From Candidatus Melainabacteria bacterium (GTDB lineage: Bacteria > Actinomycetota > Actinomycetes > Mycobacteriales > Pseudonocardiaceae): 11,871 bases of DNA. Of this stretch, positions 651 to 11,871 are shown piece by piece. The DNA is taken from assembly GCA_903970565.1 (NCBI GenBank), contig CAJCJE010000549.1, positions 1 to 11,871 of the forward strand, read 5' to 3'. How positions within the stretch are numbered: the first letter of the stretch is position 1; every line of letters starts with the position of its first letter. Position numbers and translations under genes: made by a program. The notes beneath the pieces are model-generated. The model was not told the origin of the DNA. It searched no databases and saw only the letters and a program-made list of their open reading frames with translations.

Positions 651-1859
651 TCACCAGCGCACCGGGAGTTCGGCGAGGCCACCGACGATGAGCCCTTCGC
701 GGCGACTCAGGTCCTCGGCCGCGACCGCGAGATCCAGGGTGGGCACCCGCCGCAGCAACACCTCCAGCGCGACCTGAAGTTCCACCCTGGCCAGTGCCTG
801 GCCGAGGCAGGAGTGCGGACCGACGCCGAAGGCCAGGTGCGGATTGGGCGAGCGGGCCAGGTTCATCGCCTCGGTCGCCTCGAACGCCTGCTCGTCCCGG
901 TTGGCCGCGCTCACGTTGCACACCACCGTGGTCCCGCGCGGCAGACTCGCGTCGCCGACCTCGATCGGCTCGCTGAGGTAGCGCGGGATGCCGAACCCGA
1001 AGTTGGCGTCGAACCGCAGCGACTCCTCCACGGCCGTGGGGATCAGCGACTCCTCGGCGCACAACCGGTCCCAGCGGTCTCGGTCCGCCAGGAGCATCGC
1101 GACCATCTTGCCGATCATGTTCGCGGTGGTCTCGTGGCCGGCCGCGAGCAGGATCTGGGCGGTGGAGAGCAGTTGCGCCCCCGACAGCCTGCCGTCCTCG
1201 GCATCGGCCACGGTGATCAGCTCGCTGAGCAGGTCGTCGGCCGGCGCGGCGCGTTTGGCGGCAATGTGCGCCAACAGGTACTCGGCGAACTCCGCCAGCG
1301 CGGTGTCGATCTCCGCGCGAGAATGGTGGGTGACGTTGAGCATGGTGCTCGACCAGTAGGCGAACTTGTCCCGGTCGGCGGTGGGCAGGCCGAGCAGGTC
1401 GCAGATCACCCAGACCGGCAGTGGAAAGCCGAAGGCGCGAATGAGGTCGGCGGGCCGGCCCTCGGCGAACATCTCGTCGAGTAGCTGCTCGGCCATCGCG
1501 GCGATCCTCGGCCTGCTGGCCGCCATCCGGCGCGCGCTGAACGTCCGACCGACCAGGCGCCGCCACCGCTGATGGCCGGGTCCGGTGGCCGGCGTCGGTG
1601 TCTCCTCGAAGGTGACGCCCTCGTCCGCGCTCACCCGCGCCGCGTCGTCGGCGGTCAGCTGGCGGCTGAACCGGTGGTCGGACAGTACCTGCCGAACATC
1701 CTGATAGCGGGTCAGCAACACCACCTCGTCCCCGCTGACCATGCGCACCCTGGCCACCGGATCGCCCTGGCGCAGCCGGGCCCACTCCGCCGGTGGCTCC
1801 AGCGCGGCGGGAACGGGAAAGGGATATGCCATCACTTCGTCGCCGACATCAGCACTCAA
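651..1859 (-). CDS. Cytochrome P450 monooxygenase
   Basis: A complete 402-residue soluble bacterial class I P450, which would need a ferredoxin and reductase encoded elsewhere. Hallmarks in order: C-helix region HQRWRRLV (96-103), I-helix oxygen-activation motif AGHETTA (240-246), K-helix ExxR as EESLR (278-282), and heme-binding loop FGVGPHSCLG (344-353) with Cys351 as thiolate ligand. No transmembrane anchor is present. The start is TTG at 1859-1857, chosen because a full AGGAGG lies 5 nt upstream; the first in-frame ATG is codon 10 and lacks such a site. It is transcribed divergently from the terpenoid operon, sharing an AT-rich control region, and most likely hydroxylates or otherwise oxidises the cyclised product. 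The family and catalytic competence are clear; the substrate cannot be read from sequence. Confidence 0.96.
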   Translation of the reverse strand: MSADVGDEVMAYPFPVPAALEPPAEWARLRQGDPVARVRMVSGDEVVLLTRYQDVRQVLSDHRFSRQLTADDAARVSADEGVTFEETPTPATGPGHQRWRRLVGRTFSARRMAASRPRIAAMAEQLLDEMFAEGRPADLIRAFGFPLPVWVICDLLGLPTADRDKFAYWSSTMLNVTHHSRAEIDTALAEFAEYLLAHIAAKRAAPADDLLSELITVADAEDGRLSGAQLLSTAQILLAAGHETTANMIGKMVAMLLADRDRWDRLCAEESLIPTAVEESLRFDANFGFGIPRYLSEPIEVGDASLPRGTTVVCNVSAANRDEQAFEATEAMNLARSPNPHLAFGVGPHSCLGQALARVELQVALEVLLRRVPTLDLAVAAEDLSRREGLIVGGLAELPVRW

Positions 1860-1864
1860 CGGGA

Positions 1865-1870
1865 CCTCCT
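1865..1870 (-). promoter_or_regulatory. Ribosome binding site that fixes the TTG start of the P450 gene
   Basis: On the minus strand AGGAGG occupies 1870-1865, followed by a 5-nt spacer and TTG at 1859. This near-perfect anti-16S match decides for the TTG start over the internal ATG nine codons later. Confidence 0.85.
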
Positions 1871-1914
1871 GGGTGTTCTGGTCGCTGTTCTGATCGATAC
1901 TCCCTGTTATTAAA

Positions 1915-1931
1915 ATAAGCCAGGGGCTTAT
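1915..1931. promoter_or_regulatory. Perfect inverted repeat, candidate operator at the P450 start site
   Basis: ATAAGCC (1915-1921), a 3-nt centre AGG, then GGCTTAT (1925-1931): 7-bp arms that match exactly. It sits immediately downstream of the candidate -10 box, where a repressor would block initiation. The size suits a dimeric helix-turn-helix regulator. No regulator gene is present in the window, so the binding protein is unknown. Confidence 0.5.
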
Positions 1932-1937
1932 ATCTCA

Positions 1938-1966
1938 TTTTTATTACATTACGGCAATCAAGTCAA
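1938..1966 (-). promoter_or_regulatory. Candidate sigma-70-type promoter for the P450 gene
   Basis: On the minus strand TTGACT (1966-1961, 5 of 6 to consensus) is followed by a 17-bp spacer and TAAAAA (1943-1938, 4 of 6). Transcription would start near 1931, giving a leader of about 70 nt before the ribosome site at 1870. Spacing and composition are good; this is a prediction from sequence only. Confidence 0.5.
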
Positions 1967-1993
1967 TACGATATGTTAAGCAATATTCACCAA

Positions 1994-2064
1994 TTGACGA
2001 TTTCGGCCCACTATTTGACAGAATTTCCGCTACGAATCAGCCAAAAGGCCACTTGACGAAGTCG
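1994..2064 (+). promoter_or_regulatory. Repeated TTGACGA-type boxes upstream of the aminotransferase operon
   Basis: TTGACGA-N2-TCG occurs twice in the same orientation, at 1994-2005 and 2053-2064, and a related TTGACA lies between them at 2015-2020. Each resembles a -35 element, but none has a convincing -10 about 17 bp downstream; the best is TAACGT at 2077-2082 after the last box (3 of 6). They may be alternative weak promoters or direct-repeat binding sites for an activator. Confidence 0.35.
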
Positions 2065-2074
2065 CATTCAGGGA

Positions 2075-2086
2075 ATTAACGTTAAT
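2075..2086. promoter_or_regulatory. 12-bp perfect palindrome upstream of the aminotransferase
   Basis: ATTAACGTTAAT is an exact palindrome, 120 bp before the GTG start and just downstream of the last TTGACGA box. Such AT-rich symmetry stands out in this GC-rich DNA and is a plausible regulator site; nothing else supports it. Confidence 0.35.
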
Positions 2087-2205
2087 CGGACCCGGCCGAT
2101 TCGATATTTCACGGAATCCGGAAAACGTCCGATGCCCCGTCGAAATCCACGCAGGACGACGCGCCGGACACACCTCACGCGCACGCAGAATCGGGGATCG
2201 ACATC

Positions 2206-3204
2206 GTGACACCCGTCCGCTTCGAACTGTCGTTGAACGAGAACTTCCGCGCGCCGCTCCCGGGGGTGCGTGAAGCCGTCATCACTACCGCCGACGAGGT
2301 CAACCTCACCAAGGATGCGCTTGCCAGCGGCCTGACGCAGGCCATCGCCGAGTATCTGGACGTGCCGCGCGGGCAGGTGCTCGTCGGACCCGGTTCCGGG
2401 GCGCTGCTGCAACAGTTGCTCACCACCCTCGCCGGCGACGGCGAGGTCGTGCACGCCTGGCCGTCCTTCGAGATGTATCCACTGTTGATCGGCAACGCCA
2501 GGGCGCGCCCGATCGCCGTCGGGCTACGCAATGTCACACACGACCTGAATGCGATGGCCGCAGCGGTGACCGAGCAGACCAGAGTCGTATTGATCTGCAA
2601 TCCCAACAATCCCACCGGTAGCGCACTGGGCGAGGCCGAGCTGAAAGAGTTCCTGGGCCTTCTCCCGCCCGACGTAACGGTGGTCATAGACGAAGCTTAT
2701 ATCGACTTCGCGGACCCGGCGTCGATTGCGGACGGTATTCAACTGTACCGCACAGATCCGCGGGTTTGCGTAGTTCGTACCTTCTCCAAGTCGCACGGAC
2801 TACTCGGGCTGCGGGTGGGCTATCTGGTGGCGAACGAGACCGTGGTCGGCCGGCTCGCGCCGGGCTCGTACTTCTACCGGGTCGCCACCGTCGCCCAGGC
2901 CGCCGCGTTCGCGGCGCTGCGCGCGCGCGGACAGATGCGGGCGCACTGTGCCGAGGTCGCCGCCGAACGAGGCCGGGTGCACGCGGCGCTGCGGCAGCTG
3001 GGCTGGCCGGTGCCGGCCAGCGAGGCGAACTTCCACTGGCTGCCACTGGGCGCGGACAACGATCGGTTCGTCCGGTTCTGCGCCGAGGAGGGCGTGGTGG
3101 TCCGGGAGATCGCCGGCGCCGGGGTGCGGGTCACCGTCGGCACCCGCGAGGCCAACGACGCGCTGATCGACCTGGCCCGGCGCTTCACCCGGACGCAGGT
3201 CTGA
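2206..3204 (+). CDS. HisC-like class I/II PLP-dependent aminotransferase
   Basis: A 332-residue fold-type I enzyme, closest by motif to histidinol-phosphate/aromatic aminotransferases. Visible motifs: LNEN near the N-terminus (10-13), CNPNNPTG (131-138), DEAYIDF (162-168) with the Asp that contacts the pyridine nitrogen, and RTFSKSHGLLGLRVGY (191-206) with Lys195 as Schiff-base lysine and Arg203 in the phosphate pocket. RVTVGTREAND (308-318) matches the C-terminal substrate-carboxylate region. The GTG start has GGGGA 8 nt upstream; the frame is open further up but offers no ATG. It is shorter than HisC (about 350 residues) and lacks the usual RYPDP segment, having LTKDALASG at that place. As first gene of the operon it probably transaminates a pathway keto or amino acid precursor rather than serving histidine synthesis, since no other his genes are near. 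Confidence 0.9.
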   Translation: MTPVRFELSLNENFRAPLPGVREAVITTADEVNLTKDALASGLTQAIAEYLDVPRGQVLVGPGSGALLQQLLTTLAGDGEVVHAWPSFEMYPLLIGNARARPIAVGLRNVTHDLNAMAAAVTEQTRVVLICNPNNPTGSALGEAELKEFLGLLPPDVTVVIDEAYIDFADPASIADGIQLYRTDPRVCVVRTFSKSHGLLGLRVGYLVANETVVGRLAPGSYFYRVATVAQAAAFAALRARGQMRAHCAEVAAERGRVHAALRQLGWPVPASEANFHWLPLGADNDRFVRFCAEEGVVVREIAGAGVRVTVGTREANDALIDLARRFTRTQV

Positions 3205-3228
3205 CGTGGGTCCACCACCGACGTATCC

Positions 3229-3234
3229 AGGGAG
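3229..3234 (+). promoter_or_regulatory. Ribosome binding site deciding the polyprenyl synthase start
   Basis: AGGGAG at 3229-3234 precedes ATG 3239 by 4 nt. The alternative in-frame GTG at 3206 lies one base after the aminotransferase stop, with only GCAGG upstream, and the extra residues (Pro-rich) do not look conserved. The choice is likely but not certain. Confidence 0.6.
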
Positions 3235-3238
3235 TGAC

Positions 3239-4252
3239 ATGGCCACCACCAAAACGACCACGAACGGCGCGCTGCTGACCGAGCTTGGCTCCGCCGCGCT
3301 GGTTGAAACGCTGCACGGGGAACTGTTCCGACGCTGGCCGGGCAGCGCCGACCGGGTCCGGGACATCGCCGGATACGCGCTGCTCACCCCCGGCAAGATG
3401 CTACGTCCACTGCTGCTGATCGCGGCGACCGAAGCGGTCGGCGGGGACGGGGCGAGCGTGCTGCCCGCCGCGCTGGCCGTGGAGTACCTGCACGTGGCCA
3501 CGCTGATCCACGACGACGTGATCGACGACGACGAACTGCGCAGGGGACGCCCCTCGGTCCATGCCCGCTACGGCATGGCCGACGCGCTGGTGACCGGGGA
3601 CTTCCTGATCCTGAGCATGTTCAGCACGCTGTCGGAGTGCGCCCGGCAGCCGGCGGCCACCCTGGAGGCCGCCAGGGTGCTGGCCGTGGCCGGCGCGGAC
3701 GTGTGCCGTGGCCAGGCGCGGGAGGCCGAGCTGGTCGGGAAGCTGGACTGCCGGATCGCCGACTACGAGCAGATGGTCGCCCTCAAGACCGGCGCGCTGT
3801 TCCGGGGCGCCTGCCGAGCCGGCGCGATTCTCGGCGGCGCGGCCGAAGCGCACGTCGAGGCGGTCACCCGGTACGCCGAACACCTCGGCGTCGCCTTCCA
3901 GATCTACGACGACCTGCTCCCCTACCTGGCCGGCGCTGACCGGGCCGGAAAGCCGAAAACCAGTGATATCAGCAATCTTCGCCCCACCTTCCCGGTGCTC
4001 ACCGGTTACCTCGACGCCACGCCCGCAGACCGGCAACTGTTCGACGACGCACTGTCCGGCCGAATGTCCACTCAGGACTCTTACCGGCTGGTGAGTGAAC
4101 TGCTCGACCGCACCGGGGCCATCGAACGCAGCCGGGCGCGGGCCGGCGCCGAGATCGAACTGGCCCGCCACGACCTGGCCGGGCTGCCGGGAACGGCCGG
4201 GGTCGCCCTGCTGACCGCCATCGCCGACCTCTCGATCGACCGGGAACGGTAG
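3239..4252 (+). CDS. Polyprenyl diphosphate synthase (GGPP-type or longer chain)
   Basis: A 337-residue trans-isoprenyl diphosphate synthase that condenses isopentenyl diphosphate with an allylic diphosphate. Motifs: GKMLRP (52-57), first Asp-rich motif DDVID (92-96) followed by RRGRPSVH (101-108), ALKTG (181-185), and FQIYDDLLPY (220-229) at the second Asp-rich site, where the third Asp is replaced by Pro228; then GKPKTSDISNLRPTFPVL (237-254). Residues 4 and 5 before the first motif are Thr88 and Ala87, small rather than aromatic, which argues against a farnesyl stop and allows C20 or longer. ATG 3239 was chosen because AGGGAG lies 4 nt upstream; an in-frame GTG at 3206 would add 11 unconserved residues. 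It lies 34 nt after the aminotransferase and 2 nt before the UbiA gene. Confidence 0.94.
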   Translation: MATTKTTTNGALLTELGSAALVETLHGELFRRWPGSADRVRDIAGYALLTPGKMLRPLLLIAATEAVGGDGASVLPAALAVEYLHVATLIHDDVIDDDELRRGRPSVHARYGMADALVTGDFLILSMFSTLSECARQPAATLEAARVLAVAGADVCRGQAREAELVGKLDCRIADYEQMVALKTGALFRGACRAGAILGGAAEAHVEAVTRYAEHLGVAFQIYDDLLPYLAGADRAGKPKTSDISNLRPTFPVLTGYLDATPADRQLFDDALSGRMSTQDSYRLVSELLDRTGAIERSRARAGAEIELARHDLAGLPGTAGVALLTAIADLSIDRER

Positions 4253-4254
4253 CC

Positions 4255-5247
4255 GTGGCCGACTCCGTGGGGCGCGCGATCGTGGCGCACGTACAGACCT
4301 GGCGCCCCTACACCCTCTGCTATCCGGCACTGGTCGGGGTGGCCGGGGCGAGCCTGGCCGGCGCGAACCGGTTCGGCGAGTTCGCGGCGGCGGCGGCCGG
4401 GCCGGCGCTGGGCTGGCTGGCCGGGCACTACCTCGGCGACTACTTCGACCGCGACCTCGACGCCATCGCCAAGCCGCAGCGGCCCATCCCGTCGGGACGG
4501 CTCTCGCCGCGCGCCGCGCTGGTCGGCGGCATCGGCTGCGCGCTCGGCTCGGCGATCGTGGTCACGGTGGCGAACTGGCGGGCCCTGGTGCTGTTCGTCC
4601 TGGCCATGACCGGCATCGTGGCCTACAGCCGGGTGTGCAAGGGCCGGGGAATCTCCGGCAACCTGGTGCGCGGGCTGATCACCACGCTGGCCTTCCTGGT
4701 CGGTGCCATGACGGTGCGCGCGCTGCCGCCCTGGCCGGCGCTGGTGCTGTCGGTGGTGTTCCTGCTGCACGACACCTCCTCCAACCTCATCGGCGCGATC
4801 CGGGACGTCGAGGGTGACCGGGCGGGCGGCTACCGGTCGGTGCCCGCCAGCCGAGGGGTGCCCTTCGCGGTCGGGCTGGCGCTGGCGCTGTATGCGGGCG
4901 CGCTCGTCCTCGCCGCGCTCGGCGCGCTGCTGCCGATCGCGCATCGGCTCCCCTACCTGGTCCTGGTCGTACTCGCGGCCGGGCTCGGCGTCACCGCGAT
5001 CGTGCCGCTGCTGCGGCTGACCCCGGACGTCGTCCAGGTCAGGGCGCTGCGCGCACACCAACTGCTGGTCATCGAACGGCTGGTACTGGCCTCGGCCGTC
5101 ATCGCCACCGGCCTGGACATCCGCACGGTGGTGTTCGTGTTGGTGCCGGTGCTGCTGTTCAGCGGGCTGACCCAGGCCGCGATGCGGGCCAGGCACGAAC
5201 TGCCGCCGACCGCGCGCGGCACGGACCGAAAGGCTTACCAGACATGA
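4255..5247 (+). CDS. UbiA-family membrane prenyltransferase (or UbiA-type terpene cyclase)
   Basis: A 330-residue integral membrane protein with about nine hydrophobic helices (for example 85-106, 110-125, 139-153, 160-172, 203-227, 233-252, 291-305). Both Mg-diphosphate motifs are visible: GDYFDRDLDAIAKPQRPIPSGR (61-82) with Asp62, Asp65 and Asp69, and DVEGDRAGG (184-192) with Asp184 and Asp188. The Asn that usually precedes the first motif is Gly61. Such enzymes ionise a prenyl diphosphate and transfer it to an aromatic or other acceptor; some relatives cyclise the chain instead. The GTG start lies 2 nt after the polyprenyl synthase stop, with GGGAA 8 nt upstream, so the two are almost certainly co-translated and the synthase likely feeds it. 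The last 4 bases overlap the cyclase start (ATGA). The acceptor is unknown. Confidence 0.94.
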   Translation: MADSVGRAIVAHVQTWRPYTLCYPALVGVAGASLAGANRFGEFAAAAAGPALGWLAGHYLGDYFDRDLDAIAKPQRPIPSGRLSPRAALVGGIGCALGSAIVVTVANWRALVLFVLAMTGIVAYSRVCKGRGISGNLVRGLITTLAFLVGAMTVRALPPWPALVLSVVFLLHDTSSNLIGAIRDVEGDRAGGYRSVPASRGVPFAVGLALALYAGALVLAALGALLPIAHRLPYLVLVVLAAGLGVTAIVPLLRLTPDVVQVRALRAHQLLVIERLVLASAVIATGLDIRTVVFVLVPVLLFSGLTQAAMRARHELPPTARGTDRKAYQT

Positions 5248-6933
5248 CATCCCGGACCACTGAGGCGATCACCGAGGCGATCGGCGCCGGTGCCGAGGCA
5301 CTGTTCGCGGTGCGCCGCCCCGACGGCGTCTTCGACTACGGCGACGGTACGCTGACCTCCACGCTGAGCACGGTCGGCGCGGTGTCCGCGCTGTGGTTCG
5401 CCGACCGGACCGGCGCGGCCGAGGAGATCACGCTCGGCACGGACTGGCTGCGCGCGACCCAACTGCCCGACGGTGGTTGGAGCATGGTGCCCGGCGGCGC
5501 CGCCGAGGCCGGTCCGACCGCGGTGGCCACCGCGACCCTGCAACTGGTGGCCGCGACCGAGGCCGCCGAGGCGATCGCCCTCGGCCAGGACTGGTTGCGC
5601 GGCTACGGCGGCCTCGATGCCATTCCGCACCCGGAGGTGGTCGCCTGGTGTCGCCAGTTCTACGGCTACGTCGGCTGGCTCGCGCCGAGCGAGATGCGCC
5701 GGTTTCCGTTGGAACTGGCCCTGTTTCCCGGTTTGTTCCGCCGACTGTTCGACCTGCGGTCACCGATGGTGGCCGCAGGTCGGCCTCGCGCAGACCCGGT
5801 ATCGGCGTACCAATCCGCTGCTGCGACTGCTCGCCGGGGCCGGTGAGTCCAACGCGCTGTCGATCATCCGCCAGGTCTACGAGCACGAGGGCTCGACCGG
5901 TGGCTGGTGCGAGGACGCCTGGGTGACCGGGCTGATCACCGCCGGCCTGGCCAGGGCGCGGCTGGCGCCGGACCTGGTGGCCGGCGCGGTGGCCTGGTTG
6001 CGGGAGAAGGTGAATCCGGACGGCTCGTGGAACTCCGGCCGGCTGGATCTCACCTGGTCGATGTATGCCGGCGCCGGGCTGGTCGCGGCCGGCTACGCCG
6101 CCGACGAACGGCTGCGCCCGACGAAGGAGTTGTTCCTGCGCGATCAGCAGGACCAGCCGTTCACCGCGTTCGGCTGCCCACCGGGGTTCTGGGGCTGGTC
6201 GGGTCCGCGCGGCTGGCCGGCCACGCTGGAGACCGGCGAGATCGTCTCGGTGCTGACCGCGCTGCCCGGAGACGACCAGCGGCCGGCCATCGAGCGCGGT
6301 CTTGCCTGGCTGACCGCGCAACAGGACAGCCGGGGCTCCTGGGGGCTGTGCGTGCGCAACACCAGGGTGGCCAACAGCGGCCCCTGCCCGCACATGACGG
6401 TGCAGGCCGTGGACGCGCTGCTGGACGCCGGGACACCGGCCGACGACCCGCGCATCGGCCGGGCCCTGACCTGGCTGGCCACGGCCCAGCGGGCGGACGG
6501 GACGTTCGAGTCGGTGTGGTACCGGATGTACACCGCCGGAACCTCGGCAGTGCTGCACACCCTGGTCAGAGCAGGCCGGGGCGACGGCCCGACGGCGGAG
6601 AAGGCCCGGCGGTGGCTGCACGCCGGCCAGTTGGCCGACGGTTCCTGGAGTACCGGTTCGGGCACCGAGGAGGGCACCGTCGAGGAGACCGCCTGGGCGG
6701 TGAGCGCGCTGCTGGACGCCGGGGTGGCCGTGGACGATCCGGTTGTTCGGAACGGAATCCGCTGGTTGCGCGACGCCCAGCGGGTGGACGGCAGTTGGCC
6801 GGCGGCGCGGATCAACGAGTACGTGCGGCACGTCTCGCGATATCCCAACGGTGGACTGGCGGGCGGCCTCGCGCTGCGTGCGCTGTCCCGCTACCGCGAC
6901 GCGCTCGCCGGAGGTCACCATGCCGGGAACTGA
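5244..6933 (+). CDS. Squalene-hopene-cyclase-like terpene cyclase, frameshifted as sequenced
   Basis: Two frames together encode one class II-type cyclase of about 562 residues. The first runs from ATG 5244 to a stop at 5846; after about residue 178 its translation turns to shadow sequence. Homology resumes in the +1 frame near 5779 and runs to 6933, so removing one base around 5778 restores it. Across the joint, RFPLELALFPGLFRRLFDLR and then SPMVAA plus VGLAQ match the SHC block around LPGWFP. Six QW-like repeats are seen (composite residues 73-79, 256-262, 359-366, 414-421, 461-468, 511-518). The C-terminus matches SHC order: FESVWYRMYTAGTSAVL, EETAWAVSAL, EYVRHVSRYPN. The DxDD catalytic motif is absent; its place holds LETGEIVSVL (328-337). 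The start overlaps the UbiA stop and the end overlaps the FAD monooxygenase. Probably cyclises a prenyl or epoxy-prenyl substrate; whether it is functional depends on the frameshift being real. Confidence 0.88.
5760..5785 (+). other. Apparent frameshift site in the terpene cyclase gene
   Basis: Upstream, cyclase-like sequence is read in the frame of 5244; downstream it is read one base later, from GTC at 5779. Either one base has been gained or two lost in the stretch CCGCAGGTCGG. There is no long homopolymer and no obvious slippery heptamer. The first frame terminates at 5844-5846. A sequencing error or a recent inactivating mutation is more likely than programmed shifting. Confidence 0.8.
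6910..6914 (+). promoter_or_regulatory. Ribosome binding site fixing the FAD monooxygenase start inside the cyclase gene
   Basis: GGAGG at 6910-6914 stands 5 nt before ATG 6920, inside the last codons of the cyclase gene. It decides for this start over upstream in-frame candidates, whose translation does not resemble the family. Confidence 0.8.
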
Positions 6934-8257
6934 CGTGGTGGTGTGCGGGGCCGGGGTGGCCGGCCTGGCCGCCGCGCACGCCCTTGGCACGCTGGGGTTG
7001 CAGGTGGTGCTGGTGGACAAGCAGACCACGCTCACCACCGCCGCCAAGGGTGAGGTGCTGCAACCCGGCGCGCTGGAGATCCTGCGGGACTGGGGCGTGC
7101 TGGCCCGGCTGTCCGAACACGGCGCGCTGCGGCTGTCCCGGCTGGTCGCGCGGGACCGGTTCGGCCGGACGCGGATGGCACTGGACTACGACCGGCTGCC
7201 CGGCGCCACCAACTGGCTGCTGGCGCAGGATCACCAGCTGATCCTGCGCTCGCTCGCCGAGGGACTGCCGGCGACCGTGCAACCGCGGCGCGGCGTCCTG
7301 GTCGAGCGCGCGGGCCGGGACGACACCGGCCGGGTCACCGGGGTGGTGCTGCGCGCCGGCGGGGTCGAGGAACAACTCGACGCTCGGCTGGTGGTGGCCG
7401 CCGACGGGGTGTCCTCCCGGCTGCGGCGGGCGGCGGGCACTTCCGGCGAGCGCACGGACTATCCACATCGGCTGGTCGCGCTGGACATCCCGCTGGCCGA
7501 TGCCGACGACCTCGCGCCCGACTTCACCGCCTACGTCACCGAGCGTGGGCTGCGGCTGTGCTACCCGCTGCCCGGCGACCGGGCCCGGCTCTACGTGCAG
7601 ACCGGACCGGACGAGCTGCGCGGCCTCGACCAGGCCGCGCTGCTGAACTGGACCGACCGGCTGGTGGACGAACTGCCGGCGCTGGCGGTGTTCGGCTCGG
7701 GCCTCGCGGCGAGCCTGGCGACCCGGCAGACCCTGCCGGTGTCCCGGTTCATCGCGAGCCGGCTGGCCACCCCCGGTCTGGCGCTGGTCGGCGAGTCCGG
7801 GCACGTCGTGCATCCGATGGCCGCGCAGGGCATGAACAGCGCGATCGTGGACGCCCACCAGCTCGCCTCGTGCCTGGGCGCCGCCGCCCGCGACCTCGGG
7901 CCGGCCGAGGTGGACACGGCGCTGGCGCGATACCACGACACGCGCCGGCCAGATCTGGTCCACATAGGACAGACAAGCCACAACGCGGCCCGGATGCTGA
8001 CCGACCTGTCCTGGCTCGGTCGCACCCTCGGCCGGCGCGCGCTGCACCACACCGGAGCCAACCCCCGGCTGCGCGACACGGTCATGCACAACATGTCCGG
8101 ACTCGGGATGCACCGGCTCACCCCGCTGGACCGACTGCACCAAATCGGCGTGCTGCCCGATCCACGGGCCGGCCGGACGCCGGACTGGGCCCCACCACCG
8201 ACCCAGCCGCCGACGCCACGGACCGAGTCACCGCAGCCCCTCACCGACAAGCCCTGA
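6920..8257 (+). CDS. FAD-dependent monooxygenase, putative prenyl epoxidase
   Basis: A 445-residue group A flavoprotein of the PHBH/UbiH type. Residues 5-15 form the beta strand and GxGxxG dinucleotide loop (VVVCGAGVAGL), with the ribose-binding acid in VLVDK (30-34). VVAADGVSSRLRR (158-170) is the DG motif contacting both FAD and NAD(P)H. LALVGESGHVVHPMAAQGMN (287-306) is the second FAD motif, where the usual GD is GE. The C-terminal 30 residues are Pro/Thr-rich and probably disordered. No membrane segment is evident. It overlaps the cyclase gene by 14 nt, so the two are translationally coupled. In other terpenoid pathways flavin epoxidases of this fold oxidise the terminal alkene of a prenyl chain before cyclisation; that role is inferred here. 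Aromatic-ring hydroxylation of a prenyl acceptor is the alternative. Confidence 0.92.
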   Translation: MPGTDVVVCGAGVAGLAAAHALGTLGLQVVLVDKQTTLTTAAKGEVLQPGALEILRDWGVLARLSEHGALRLSRLVARDRFGRTRMALDYDRLPGATNWLLAQDHQLILRSLAEGLPATVQPRRGVLVERAGRDDTGRVTGVVLRAGGVEEQLDARLVVAADGVSSRLRRAAGTSGERTDYPHRLVALDIPLADADDLAPDFTAYVTERGLRLCYPLPGDRARLYVQTGPDELRGLDQAALLNWTDRLVDELPALAVFGSGLAASLATRQTLPVSRFIASRLATPGLALVGESGHVVHPMAAQGMNSAIVDAHQLASCLGAAARDLGPAEVDTALARYHDTRRPDLVHIGQTSHNAARMLTDLSWLGRTLGRRALHHTGANPRLRDTVMHNMSGLGMHRLTPLDRLHQIGVLPDPRAGRTPDWAPPPTQPPTPRTESPQPLTDKP

Positions 8258-8277
8258 CCGAGAAGGAGAACGCGATC

Positions 8278-9324
8278 ATGGATGCCCAGCCCGTCGAGGC
8301 CGACCCCACCGACGCCGACCTCACCACCACCCTGGCCACCCTCATCGACCTGGCGACCCCGTTCGCGGTGCGCACCGCGATCACCCTGCGACTGCCCGAA
8401 CTCGTGGCCGGGGGCAGCACCCGGCTCGACGCGCTGGCCGACGCCTCCGGCGCGCACCAGGAGTCGCTCGGCCGACTGCTGCGCCACCTGGTGAGCATCG
8501 GACTGTTCACCGAGACCGCGCCACAGACCTACGGTCTGACCCCCCTGTCCCGGCACCTGCTCGCCGAGGACGGCACCTGGTTCCGCGGCTGGCTGAACCT
8601 GGAGAGCCCCGGCACGAAGATGGACCTCGCCTTCACCGGCATGTTGCACTCCATCCGAACCGGCCACTCCGCCTACGGCGCCGTGCACGGGGTGCCGTTC
8701 TGGTCGGACTACCAGGACAACGACGCGCTGCGGGAGTTCTTCGGCGGGGTGATGGCCGCCTACGCCTGGCAGACCGGGCCGGTGCTGGCCACCGAGTTCG
8801 ACTGGACCGACGTGCGCACCGTGATCGACGTCGGCGGCGGCATCGGCGCGCTGTTGGCCGAGGTCCTTGCCGCGCATCCGCACCTGCGCGGCGAGGTGCT
8901 GGACCTGCCGCCGGTGGTGGCCGAGGCGAACCAGGCGCTACGGGAGGCGGGCGTCGCCGACCGAGCCGAGTTCGTGCCGGGCAGTTTCTTCGATCCGCTG
9001 CCTGCCGGCCGGGACGTCTACGTGGTCTCCCGCGTGCTGACCGACTGGAACGACGAGAACGCCGGCAAGATCCTGCGCCGGTGCGCCGAGGCCGCCGGCA
9101 CGCACGGCCGCATCCTGATCGTGGAGGTACTGGCCGGCGATGACCACGCCAAGCGCAACACCTCCTTCGACCTCCAGTCACTGGTGCTGCTCGGCGGCCA
9201 GGAACGCTCCCCGGCGGACACCGAGAAGCTGGCCGTCGACGCCGGCCTGGTGGTGGCCAGGGGGCGACGCTGGCCGGGCGGGCTGGTGGTCATCGAGTGC
9301 ATGTCCGCCGGCCGCGAGAACTGA
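8278..9324 (+). CDS. SAM-dependent O-methyltransferase (acetylserotonin/COMT-like family)
   Basis: A 348-residue protein with the two-domain layout of small-molecule O-methyltransferases. The N-terminal winged-helix dimerisation domain (about 15-100) includes LDALADASGAHQESLGRLLR; a C-terminal Rossmann domain follows. Motif I for SAM is VIDVGGGIG (182-190), the acidic adenosine contact follows at EVLDLPPVV (206-214), and GSFFDPLP (235-242) leads into YVVSRVLTDWNDENAGKILR (248-267). In COMT-type enzymes this segment reads LHDW and supplies the catalytic His; here it is Thr255. ATG 8278 is preceded by AAGGAG with a 9-nt spacer and lies 20 nt after the monooxygenase stop. Likely methylates a hydroxyl of the product. 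The missing His leaves room for a proximity mechanism as in DnrK, or a non-methylating role as in RdmB. Confidence 0.9.
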   Translation: MDAQPVEADPTDADLTTTLATLIDLATPFAVRTAITLRLPELVAGGSTRLDALADASGAHQESLGRLLRHLVSIGLFTETAPQTYGLTPLSRHLLAEDGTWFRGWLNLESPGTKMDLAFTGMLHSIRTGHSAYGAVHGVPFWSDYQDNDALREFFGGVMAAYAWQTGPVLATEFDWTDVRTVIDVGGGIGALLAEVLAAHPHLRGEVLDLPPVVAEANQALREAGVADRAEFVPGSFFDPLPAGRDVYVVSRVLTDWNDENAGKILRRCAEAAGTHGRILIVEVLAGDDHAKRNTSFDLQSLVLLGGQERSPADTEKLAVDAGLVVARGRRWPGGLVVIECMSAGREN

Positions 9325-9375
9325 CCCACCACGCCGAGCGGCACCACCCCCTTCCCAACAGCAAAGGAACGGTCG

Positions 9376-10227
9376 ATGACGGTCACCGCAGAATCCATTG
9401 TGGACGTACGCCCGATTTCCGGTGCGCTCGGCGCCGAGGTCCGCGGCGTGGACCTCGAACACCTCGGCGACGAGGTGTTCGCGCAGCTGCACGCGGCGCT
9501 GCTGGCACATCTCGTGCTGTTCTTCCCGGACGCGGTGGGGCTGACCCCGCAGGCGCACAAGGAGTTCGGCCGTCGACTGGGCAGCCTGGAGATCCATCCC
9601 TTCCTGCCCACACTCGACGGGCACGAGGAGATCGTGGTGCTCGACTCCGACCAGGGCGCCAAGGCCGACGTCTGGCACACCGACGTCACCTTCGCGCCGA
9701 GCCCGCCGATCGCCTCGATCCTCCAGATCGTGCGGTGCCCGGCCTACGGCGGCGACACCATGTGGAGCAACCAGTACCTTGCCTACCAGGCGCTGTCCGA
9801 GCCGATCAGGGACCTGTTGACCGGCCTCACCGCGCACCACGTCTTCGCGGTGCCTGGCGGTTCCTACCGCAGCGAGGCCGAACATCCGGTGGTGCGCACC
9901 CACCCGGTCACCGGCCGGCGCTCGCTGTATGTGAACCGGATGTTCACCACCCGCATCCCGCAGCTGCGCAAGGACGAGAGCGACCTGCTGCTCGGTCTGT
10001 TGTTCGGCATCTCCGAGCGTCCCGAGCACAGCTGCCGATTCCGCTGGCAGCCCGGCGCCATCGCGCTGTGGGACAACCGGGCCACCCAGCACCACGCGAT
10101 CAACGACTACACCGAACGCCGGGTCGGCCAGCGGGTGACGATCCTCGGCGACGAACCGCACGGCGAGGCGCCGCGCTGGGCGCACCACGTGGACAACGCC
10201 AGCGCGGCGGCGGCGAGCAGGGCATGA
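9376..10227 (+). CDS. TauD/TfdA-family Fe(II)/2-oxoglutarate-dependent dioxygenase
   Basis: A complete 283-residue jelly-roll dioxygenase. The iron triad is visible as HTD in VWHTDVTF (His101, Asp103) and the distal His in WDNRATQHHAINDY (His239). Arg253 in GQRVTILGDEP is the expected 2-oxoglutarate carboxylate ligand. GAEVRGVDL (19-27) and KEFGRRLGSLEIHP (62-75) are standard N-terminal TauD blocks. Start ATG 9376 has AAAGGA 7 nt upstream; the 51-nt gap before it is the largest inside the operon, and I see no terminator in it. Family members hydroxylate or oxidatively cleave small acids, but many in biosynthetic clusters oxidise complex scaffolds. In this context a late hydroxylation, desaturation or C-O cleavage of the terpenoid is likely. 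The substrate is not readable from sequence. Confidence 0.93.
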   Translation: MTVTAESIVDVRPISGALGAEVRGVDLEHLGDEVFAQLHAALLAHLVLFFPDAVGLTPQAHKEFGRRLGSLEIHPFLPTLDGHEEIVVLDSDQGAKADVWHTDVTFAPSPPIASILQIVRCPAYGGDTMWSNQYLAYQALSEPIRDLLTGLTAHHVFAVPGGSYRSEAEHPVVRTHPVTGRRSLYVNRMFTTRIPQLRKDESDLLLGLLFGISERPEHSCRFRWQPGAIALWDNRATQHHAINDYTERRVGQRVTILGDEPHGEAPRWAHHVDNASAAAASRA

Positions 10228-11012
10228 CCGCACCGGGACCGCGTTTCGTCGAACTCGACGACGGCCTCGGCTGCTACCTGCCGGAGGGCGCGGGAACCGA
10301 CGAGATCGAGTTCATCCACGGCGAGATCTTCCGGGACAACTGTTACCTGCGCGACGGGCTGACCCTGCCCGATGAGCCGCTGGTCCTGGACATCGGCGCC
10401 AACGTCGGGCTGTTCACCCTGTACGTCAAGGGAATCCGGCCCGGCGCACGGGTGGTCGCGGTCGAGCCGATGCCCGCGACGTTCCAGGCGCTGCGCGCCA
10501 CCATCGCTCATCACGGCTGTACCGGGGTGACCACGGTGCGCGCCGCGCTCGGCGCGCGCGCGGAATCGGCGGTGCCGTTCACCTTCTACCCCGACCAACC
10601 CGGCAACTCGACCCGGTATCCGGAGCAGAAGGCAGCCGCACGCGCCCTGCTCGCGCAACTGCCCGGCACGCGCGAGGACCACGAGCGCCGCGCTCGACTG
10701 GCAACGGACGGCGCCGAGGTCCGGCTGTCCGTGACCCGGCTGTCGGAGGTGCTGGCCGGCCTGACCCTGCCGGAGGTCATCGACCTGGTCAAGATCGACG
10801 TGGAGGGCGCGGAGGCGGAGGTGCTGGCCGGGATCGACGAGGCGGACTGGCGCCGGGTCCGGCAGGTCGTGGTCGAGGTGCAACAGTTGGGTCAGGACGG
10901 ACCGGAAGTGCACGATATCCTTGCGCGGCAAGGGTTGGAGGTCAGCAGCGTGCCGGCCGACGGGATACTCGGGGCCCTGGGCACCGAGACCGTGTTCGCC
11001 CGGCGGCCGTGA
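10224..11012 (+). CDS. FkbM-family SAM-dependent methyltransferase
   Basis: A complete 262-residue methyltransferase. The SAM motif is LVLDIGANVGLFTLYV (53-68), with acidic residue Glu81 in VVAVEPMPATF (78-88), and the family signature DLVKIDVEGAEAEVL (187-201) follows. Its N-terminal lead (EIFRDNCYLRDGLTLPDE, 34-51) is typical of FkbM proteins of biosynthetic clusters. The start overlaps the dioxygenase stop as ATGA, with only a weak GAG purine site 6 nt upstream, implying translational coupling. FkbM enzymes O-methylate hydroxyls of polyketides, sugars or carboxylates. Because a glycosyltransferase follows directly, methylation of a sugar or of the aglycone is plausible. With the gene at 8278 the pathway has two unrelated methyltransferases, so at least two methylation events are likely (inference). 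Confidence 0.93.
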   Translation: MTAPGPRFVELDDGLGCYLPEGAGTDEIEFIHGEIFRDNCYLRDGLTLPDEPLVLDIGANVGLFTLYVKGIRPGARVVAVEPMPATFQALRATIAHHGCTGVTTVRAALGARAESAVPFTFYPDQPGNSTRYPEQKAAARALLAQLPGTREDHERRARLATDGAEVRLSVTRLSEVLAGLTLPEVIDLVKIDVEGAEAEVLAGIDEADWRRVRQVVVEVQQLGQDGPEVHDILARQGLEVSSVPADGILGALGTETVFARRP

Positions 11013-11028
11013 GCGGAGGACCGAGGCC

Positions 11029-11871
11029 ATGCGTCTGCTGTTGACCTGCCTGCCCTACTACTCGCATCTGCTGCCGCTGGTCTCGGTCGCCGGCGTCGCG
11101 CGCCGGGCCGGGCACGCGGTCGCGGTGGCGACCGCACCCGCGCTCGCCGAGCACCTCGCCGGGACCGGGATCGAGCATCTGCCGCTGCCGAACGTGCAGA
11201 CCCTGGAGGAACTGCTGGCCGATCCGGCCTTCGCCGGCAGTCCCGGTATGCCGGGTGCCCGCGCGGAAACCGCACGGGAGCGGGCGCGGGCCAGGGCCAG
11301 GCCGGGACGGCTGACCCTGGCCAGGGCCGGGCCGCTGGCCGGCATCTTCGCCAGGGACGTCATCGACGCGGCGCGGCACTGGCGGCCGGAGGTGATCATA
11401 CGGGAGGGCAACGAGTTCGGCGGCCACCTCGCGGCGCACCGGCTGGGGTTGCCCCAGGCCGTGCTGGACATCGCCCCGTTCAACGCGCGCCACCTGCCGT
11501 TCGTGCACGAATCCCTCAACGGCCAGCGCGTCGAACTGGGACTGGACCCGGTCGACGATCCGTGGTGGCCGAACCGGGGTCTGCTGGCCGGTCTCCTGCC
11601 CGCCGAGTGGTACCCGGACTCGCTGCCGGTACACCCGACCAGGTCCTACCGGGCCGAGGAGGTGGGCACCGGACTCGATCCCGCCTTCGCCGACCTGCCC
11701 GACGACCGGCCGCTGGTCCTCGCCGGGCTCGGCACGGTCGCCGCCAGCATCGTGCCGGAAGCACCGGAGCTGTTGACCGCGCTGGTCACCGCGCTCGCGC
11801 GGCTGCCATGTACGGCGGTGGTGTCGCTCGGGTCCGAATCGGCGGTCCGCGACTGGGCCGGCCCGCGCCCG
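11029..11871 (+). CDS. Family-1 (GT-B) glycosyltransferase, 3' end beyond window
   Basis: The frame is open from ATG 11029 to the window edge, giving 281 residues, about 70 percent of a typical 390-420-residue enzyme. GGAGGA lies 8 nt upstream and the FkbM stop 16 nt upstream. The start (MRLLLTCLPYYSHLLPLVSV) and the following AGHAVAVATAP match the acceptor-binding N-terminal domain of antibiotic glycosyltransferases; the His of YSHLLP (13) corresponds to the usual catalytic base. LAGLGT (about 233-238) marks entry into the C-terminal nucleotide-sugar domain, whose donor-binding motif lies outside the window. Residues 77-93 are Arg/Ala-rich (ARAETARERARARARPG), an odd low-complexity loop. No sugar-biosynthesis gene is in view, so the donor may be a common NDP-sugar or one made further right. 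The product is therefore probably a glycoside. Confidence 0.91.
   Translation, partial: MRLLLTCLPYYSHLLPLVSVAGVARRAGHAVAVATAPALAEHLAGTGIEHLPLPNVQTLEELLADPAFAGSPGMPGARAETARERARARARPGRLTLARAGPLAGIFARDVIDAARHWRPEVIIREGNEFGGHLAAHRLGLPQAVLDIAPFNARHLPFVHESLNGQRVELGLDPVDDPWWPNRGLLAGLLPAEWYPDSLPVHPTRSYRAEEVGTGLDPAFADLPDDRPLVLAGLGTVAASIVPEAPELLTALVTALARLPCTAVVSLGSESAVRDWAGPRP

Follow-up and report, generated by a model that had tools for sequence, protein, structure and literature searches.

The window analysed here is the whole of contig C549 (CAJCJE010000549.1; 11,871 bases) of assembly GCA_903970565.1, a draft of 4.86 Mb in 1020 contigs with 74.9% completeness. From position 2206 to the contig end it carries nine tightly packed genes in one direction. 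They encode, in order, an aminotransferase (AT), a polyprenyl diphosphate synthase (IDS), a UbiA-family prenyltransferase (UbiA), a cyclase resembling squalene-hopene cyclase (SHC), a flavin adenine dinucleotide (FAD)-dependent monooxygenase (FMO), an O-methyltransferase (OMT), a dioxygenase of the TauD family, an FkbM-type methyltransferase and a glycosyltransferase (GT) that ends abruptly at position 11871 (Table 1). The locus is best explained, with a probability of about 0.68, as most of a brasilicardin-type cluster that would make a diterpenoid alpha-amino acid carrying a sugar.

Table 1. Features of the window and the basis of each assignment.
Feature	Coordinates	Strand	Basis
Cytochrome P450, divergent	651..1859	-	Pfam p450, 1.8e-27; heme-Cys motif FGVGPHSCLG
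Intergenic region	1860..2205	.	Lower GC
HisC/Pat-like pyridoxal phosphate (PLP) aminotransferase (AT)	2206..3204	+	Aminotran_1_2/HisC-like domain call
Polyprenyl diphosphate synthase (IDS)	3206..4252	+	polyprenyl_synt; predicted to resemble geranylgeranyl diphosphate synthase
UbiA-family prenyltransferase	4255..5247	+	Pfam UbiA, 4.5e-33
SHC-like class II cyclase	5244..6933	+	SQHop_cyclase; frameshifted near 5772-5785
FAD-dependent monooxygenase (FMO)	6920..8257	+	FAD_binding_3, 1e-39; weak squalene-epoxidase (SE) match, 8.6e-07
O-methyltransferase (OMT)	8278..9324	+	Methyltransf_2 and Dimerisation
Fe(II)/2-oxoglutarate dioxygenase (TauD)	9376..10227	+	TauD; HxD and distal His kept
FkbM-type methyltransferase	10224..11012	+	PF05050, 2.1e-20; predicted tailoring role
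GT1-type glycosyltransferase, EryCIII-like	11029..11871	+	EryCIII-like_N; cut by contig end

The junctions between the nine genes measure +1, +2, -4, -14, +20, +51, -4 and +16 nt with the starts chosen in this analysis. These distances bear out the original prediction of nine co-directional genes with gaps of 51 nt or less, and the domain calls agree with its list of genes. Two details differed. It had counted four junctions that overlap or lie 2 nt apart, where five overlap or lie 1-2 nt apart, and it had given the order as prenyltransferase, epoxidase and cyclase, where the actual order is UbiA, cyclase and epoxidase. The frameshift that splits the cyclase had escaped its notice.

Conservation of the operon was assessed in 43 distinct loci, which were hand-picked from matches to cyclase or UbiA baits and do not include every match; the linkage counts are conditional on these baits. 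The first source gave 15 loci, all of which were used. The second gave 16 stretches, drawn from 25 of 397 genomes of the order with strong bait matches, 19 of 160 genomes of another genus that matched the deposited Nocardia cyclase P0108 (B1Q2P4) at 49-53% identity, 2 of 150 Nocardia-genus genomes and one further genome. The third gave 18 stretches from two other genera, with strong bait matches in 17 of 392 and 14 of 80 genomes. Four stretches were dropped as repeats (L070 of L020, L071 of L018, L072 of L013 and L122 of L066) and two for want of a cyclase match (L123 and L125), leaving 15 + 13 + 15 = 43. Placements were taken from tblastn because the gene calls were rough, with shadow frames. 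AT, OMT and TauD were sought with the proteins of the window itself, with a threshold of 60 bits and in the part of each locus that was read, a search that misses unrelated enzymes of those kinds.

The first set of 28 loci contained the synthase and the cyclase in all 28, UbiA in 27, AT, the FAD enzyme and OMT in 26 each, TauD in 24, P450 in 20, GT in 5 and FkbM in 3. Over all 43 loci the counts were 43 for the cyclase, 42 for UbiA, 41 each for the synthase and the FAD enzyme, 35 for AT, 34 for TauD, 28 each for OMT and P450, 7 for GT and 4 for FkbM. The run IDS-UbiA-cyclase-FMO retains both its order and its strand in 35/43 loci, and the run AT-IDS-UbiA-cyclase-FMO is kept in order in 24/43, including locus L057 of a Nocardia-genus genome. 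In the 24 first-set loci that hold all seven core genes, protein distances were correlated for 21 of 21 gene pairs (r 0.82-0.97), and for each pair none of 999 permutations gave a correlation as high. The original prediction had proposed a check of co-inheritance; these correlations show that the operon genes are co-inherited, and their linkage is more than chance.

The first three enzymes are predicted to supply the prenyl chain, its transfer and the amino group. The AT is predicted to convert an alpha-keto acid to an alpha-amino acid, and its PLP lysine is conserved in 34 of the 35 loci; in the 35th the match is cut off. The synthase has DDVID as its first motif and DDLLP as its second, and the same DDLLP occurs in 25 of 41 loci. 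In the window this second motif (residues 235-239) replaces DDxxD, and none of the 41 loci has Asp as its fifth residue. UbiA keeps both Asp-rich motifs (GDYFDRDLD and RDVEGDRAGGY), and its nearest solved chains are digeranylgeranylglyceryl phosphate synthase and chlorophyll a synthase.

In squalene-hopene cyclase, DxDD is the catalytic proton-donor motif. This motif is absent from the cyclase of the window, which reads A-T-L-E at that position. The pattern x-x-[L/M/V]-E is found there in P0108 and in 35/35 AT-bearing loci, and DTDD or ETDD is found at the same site in 3/43 loci. The FMO is predicted to be the epoxidase of the prenyl chain because of its context and its weak squalene-epoxidase match; its nearest solved chains are the FAD monooxygenases 6sw1 and 2x3n (E about 1e-23).

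The OMT and the TauD dioxygenase extend the comparison to tailoring. The dioxygenase is predicted to be a bra0-type hydroxylase of the C3 unit. Its closest solved relative is PlaO1 (7qtd, 3.2e-102; runner-up 5.3e-66), which we take to be the phenalinolactone dioxygenase, and it is 63% identical to the L057 copy. The OMT, predicted to be of bra11 type, is 48% identical to the L057 copy. At residue 255, where a catalytic His is usual in this fold, it reads VLTDW; Thr occupies that site in 28/28 loci in which an OMT was matched. GT and FkbM occur as a pair in 4/43 loci (L009 of Saccharopolyspora subtropica, L013, L066 and L121).

The brasilicardin A cluster of Nocardia terpenica (bra0-bra12, MIBiG BGC0000632; complete in GenBank MT247069 according to PMC7837296) was compared through L057, two deposited relatives and published descriptions. 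According to two papers, bra1-bra6 lead to the core, the divergent dioxygenase gene bra0 and bra11 to methoxylation at C16, bra7-bra9 presumably to 3-hydroxybenzoate, and bra10 to rhamnose attachment (PMC7837296, PMC12185567). The side chain of brasilicardin is an amino acid on a terpene, and bra0 is opposed in direction to bra1-bra11 (PMC7837296, excerpt).

P0108 was returned by a search with the C-terminal part of the cyclase. It was deposited as 'diterpene cyclase' from Nocardia brasiliensis, as the brasilicardin producer N. terpenica was formerly called, and from this label it is taken as the brasilicardin cyclase. No near-identical match to it was present in the 150 Nocardia-genus genomes, of which two matched at E 1e-80 or better, the best at 72% identity; this value is that of the L057 cyclase. 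P0244, a UbiA relative in N. terpenica, is 67% identical to the L057 UbiA. At L057, TauD is divergent from the run AT-IDS-UbiA-cyclase-FMO-P450, the first three genes of which overlap, and beyond the P450 lie a PapA acyltransferase, a sub-threshold match to a family 2 GT and an OMT. This layout agrees with the published bra layout, and its operon genes would map one by one onto bra1-bra6.

As seen through L057, P0108, P0244 and published descriptions, the window shares with brasilicardin the AT-IDS-UbiA-cyclase-FMO operon, a TauD-type dioxygenase and an OMT assigned to methoxylation of the side chain, and the L-E motif of the cyclase. Its genes, too, would map onto individual bra genes, with TauD and OMT as putative orthologues of bra0 and bra11. 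The two systems differ in that TauD of the window lies inside the operon and is not divergent, and in that the window has a GT1-type GT and FkbM. Neither an acyl gene nor a 3-hydroxybenzoate gene (as bra7-bra9) is present on the contig, whose end falls within the GT, and no regulator of the Streptomyces antibiotic regulatory protein type (as Bra12) is among the genes of the window, which covers little of the flanks. The original prediction proposed a nitrogen-bearing, glycosylated terpenoid, and this remains the best reading. Its statement that the combination could not be matched to a named product did not hold, given the P0108 clade and the operon, dioxygenase and OMT of L057, and the analogy it drew with fungal and cyanobacterial meroterpenoids is weaker than that with the actinomycete brasilicardin pathway.

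Brasilicardin-like clusters have already been reported from Lentzea fradiae CGMCC 4.3506, to which L018 belongs (PMC9120177), and, with 'weak similarity', from Pseudonocardia of leafcutter ants (PMC5183585). In one survey, brasilicardin genes, counted gene by gene, are commoner in Streptomyces than in Nocardia (PMC12153302). No product named for the lineage of the window was found in the literature searched, which does not show that none has been published.

When 47 cyclase rows were placed in a maximum-likelihood tree, the window, P0108, L057 and L111 (Amycolatopsis tolypomycina) fell together among the 39 rows to one side of a split with 100/99 support. Within the stretch read, an AT match accompanies the cyclase in 35/35 loci on this side and in 0/8 on the other. 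The window belongs to a subclade of 24 rows (100/99) in which AT, OMT and TauD are present together in 21/21 loci. The brasilicardin group forms a subgroup apart, which makes the window a sister lineage that shares the core set rather than a copy of the brasilicardin cluster.

The AT marks one branch of a broader IDS-UbiA-cyclase-FMO family. The window is tied to this family because the same cassette occurs at a tiancilactone-type locus and because its TauD is close to PlaO1. The locus in question, L110, has the order IDS-UbiA-cyclase-FMO-TauD, and its UbiA is 98% identical to that of Streptomyces sp. CB03238, a tiancilactone producer (PMC10301674, excerpt); L110 is assumed to be the tiancilactone cluster itself. 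A. tolypomycina produces the atolypenes, which are sesterterpenoids (PMC10301674, excerpt), and L111 is assumed to be the atolypene cluster. It resembles the window in its AT-IDS-UbiA-cyclase-FMO genes and in the placement of its cyclase on the AT-bearing side, and differs in having no OMT or TauD match within the 20 kb read.

The following pathway is proposed for the window. The polyprenyl synthase would make a C20 diphosphate, and UbiA would move the C20 chain onto a small keto acid, at C3 of pyruvate or of its enol, rather than onto an aromatic ring. The FAD enzyme would then epoxidise the terminal alkene, and the SHC-fold cyclase, which has no DxDD, would open the epoxide to give fused rings and a 3-hydroxyl. 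The HisC/Pat-like AT would convert the keto acid to an alpha-amino acid, the PlaO1-like dioxygenase would hydroxylate the carbon adjoining the amino acid carbon, and the O-methyltransferase would cap the new hydroxyl. The GT would add a sugar, probably at the 3-hydroxyl, and FkbM and the P450 would complete the tailoring. The data show the protein families, the motifs, the conserved linkage and the clade; we infer the acceptor, the chain length, the order of steps, the role of the epoxidase, the ring pattern, the product of this strain and the mapping onto individual bra genes.

Several observations weigh against a brasilicardin-type assignment. The cyclase of the window is just 40-47% identical to P0108 and L057, and its UbiA is no nearer to that of N. 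terpenica (P0244, 44% identity) than to that of CB03238 (46%) or A. tolypomycina (50%). The bra genes were compared only through L057, P0108, P0244 and published descriptions. The brasilicardin subgroup, of 9 rows, is weakly joined (83/64), with the window in the sister lineage; the tree is rooted at its midpoint, and the program warned that the long branches L064, L065, L111 and L119 may be misplaced. The GT and FkbM of the window have no match in L057, and the nearest solved relatives of the FMO are named just as probable FAD-dependent monooxygenases. The AT need not mean the same product: A. tolypomycina, a source of sesterterpenoids, has an AT but lacks matches to OMT and TauD, and both the length of the chain and the product may differ.

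The nearest solved chain of the AT, 4r2n, is a 'putative phenylalanine aminotransferase', which counts against the proposed keto acid and in favour of an aromatic meroterpenoid. In that case the AT would supply phenylpyruvate, hydroxyphenylpyruvate or indolepyruvate, and the aromatic ring of this keto acid would be prenylated by UbiA, as in zigralone biosynthesis. The zigralone cluster of Micromonospora zingiberis likewise has an AT, a polyprenyl synthase and a UbiA-like prenyltransferase, proposed to serve a tryptophan-derived acceptor (PMC13307353, excerpt), and so provides an example of this gene set with an aromatic substrate. It differs from the window in that its cyclase is Pyr4-like rather than SHC-like, that it relies also on a thiamine pyrophosphate (TPP) enzyme, and that epoxidation is carried out by ZigK, not an FMO (PMC13307353, excerpt). 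Neither a Pyr4-like cyclase nor a TPP enzyme was found on the contig of the window, and the common set of AT, OMT and TauD, together with the cyclase clade, points to brasilicardin and its amino acid side chain (PMC7837296, excerpt). Prenylation of an aromatic ring is therefore considered unlikely. A keto-acid or lactone pathway of the phenalinolactone or tiancilactone type, with the AT as an accessory (for example in amino-sugar formation), would account for the shared IDS-UbiA-cyclase-FMO cassette and the PlaO1-like dioxygenase. It is improbable: L110 has no AT or OMT match, its cyclase falls across the 100/99 split and reads NFLD against ATLE in the window, and no amino-sugar gene is among the genes of the window.

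The frameshift in the cyclase is a further point against a working pathway. The N-terminal part lies in the frame of 5244-5846 and the C-terminal part in that of 5473-6933, while in the closest relatives the cyclase is one protein of about 562 residues and none of the 27 genome matches listed for the cyclase contains an internal stop. If the frameshift is real, the operon would be a decayed copy that has lost the ability to make its product in this organism. Compared with L006 (Nocardia albiluteola), the nearest relative compared, both pieces of the cyclase are constrained, with a ratio of nonsynonymous to synonymous change (pN/pS) of 0.25 for each piece, where six neighbouring genes have values of 0.28-0.44, and the other eight operon genes have open frames, the GT being truncated only by the contig end. 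An indel error is a likelier cause than a fresh mutation, because the assembly is fragmented, and decay of the operon is judged to have only a small chance of being correct.

The surroundings of the operon were also inspected. The P450 of the window is not clearly orthologous to those of its relatives, with a best match per locus of 33-43% identity in 28/43 loci. The intergenic region between it and the operon had no match in Rfam. It contains an imperfect direct repeat of 16 nt (positions 1990-2005 and 2049-2064; 81%, 59 nt apart), which is possibly a regulator site or a product of chance. At 2-334, on the minus strand, the first part of a small protein that looks secreted is present, truncated at the contig edge; it has no Pfam match. 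When the missing second half of the GT was sought in the 75%-complete assembly, a related GT gave 12 matches, none of them close besides that of the window itself. A genus-level genome search with the window matched only its own genome.

Some relatives show features of their own. In L006, a non-ribosomal peptide synthetase module (adenylation, peptidyl carrier protein and condensation domains; 14376-17501, minus strand) adjoins the cluster with a P450 and a major facilitator superfamily transporter, an arrangement which hints that the terpenoid amino acid could be incorporated into a peptide. One Amycolatopsis-genus genome (G1111) carries three separate UbiA-cyclase-FMO clusters (L120, L126 and L127) on a single contig of 9.67 Mb, two with an AT match and one without. 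In Saccharopolyspora spinosa (L013/L072), the FkbM, GT and TauD matches are partial or frame-split, as in a decaying copy or a draft with errors. The single TGA in its cyclase match may be the stop of the gene itself, and a shorter match at the same place has no stop. L061 and L062, from a related branch with genomes of 4.1-4.5 Mb, keep cyclase, UbiA, AT and OMT and have no FMO or TauD match, with the L062 contig ending early.

The window looks like a further member of the known brasilicardin-like family, not a new kind of pathway. The HisC-like gene thereby gains a concrete, testable role, and a puzzling mix of genes is tied to a drug-lead class, since brasilicardin, a tricyclic diterpene bearing an amino acid side chain, is an immunosuppressant. 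The brasilicardin-type core, characterised in N. terpenica, is kept with AT, dioxygenase and methyltransferase in named genomes of Saccharopolyspora, Amycolatopsis, Lentzea, Crossiella, Pseudonocardia and Streptomyces. More tentatively, the whole AT-bearing clade (35/43 loci) could represent a large and mostly uncharacterised family of terpenoid alpha-amino acids. In such a family, UbiA would prenylate a non-aromatic C3 keto acid, an epoxide-opening cyclase without the central DxDD aspartate (35/35) would form the rings, the product of the window would be glycosylated and FkbM-methylated, and some relatives, such as L006, would feed peptides. The chemically interesting part, as far as it can be predicted from the genes, would be the proposed prenylation step. 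If UbiA accepts pyruvate, this would be, in our judgement, an unusual acceptor for the superfamily.

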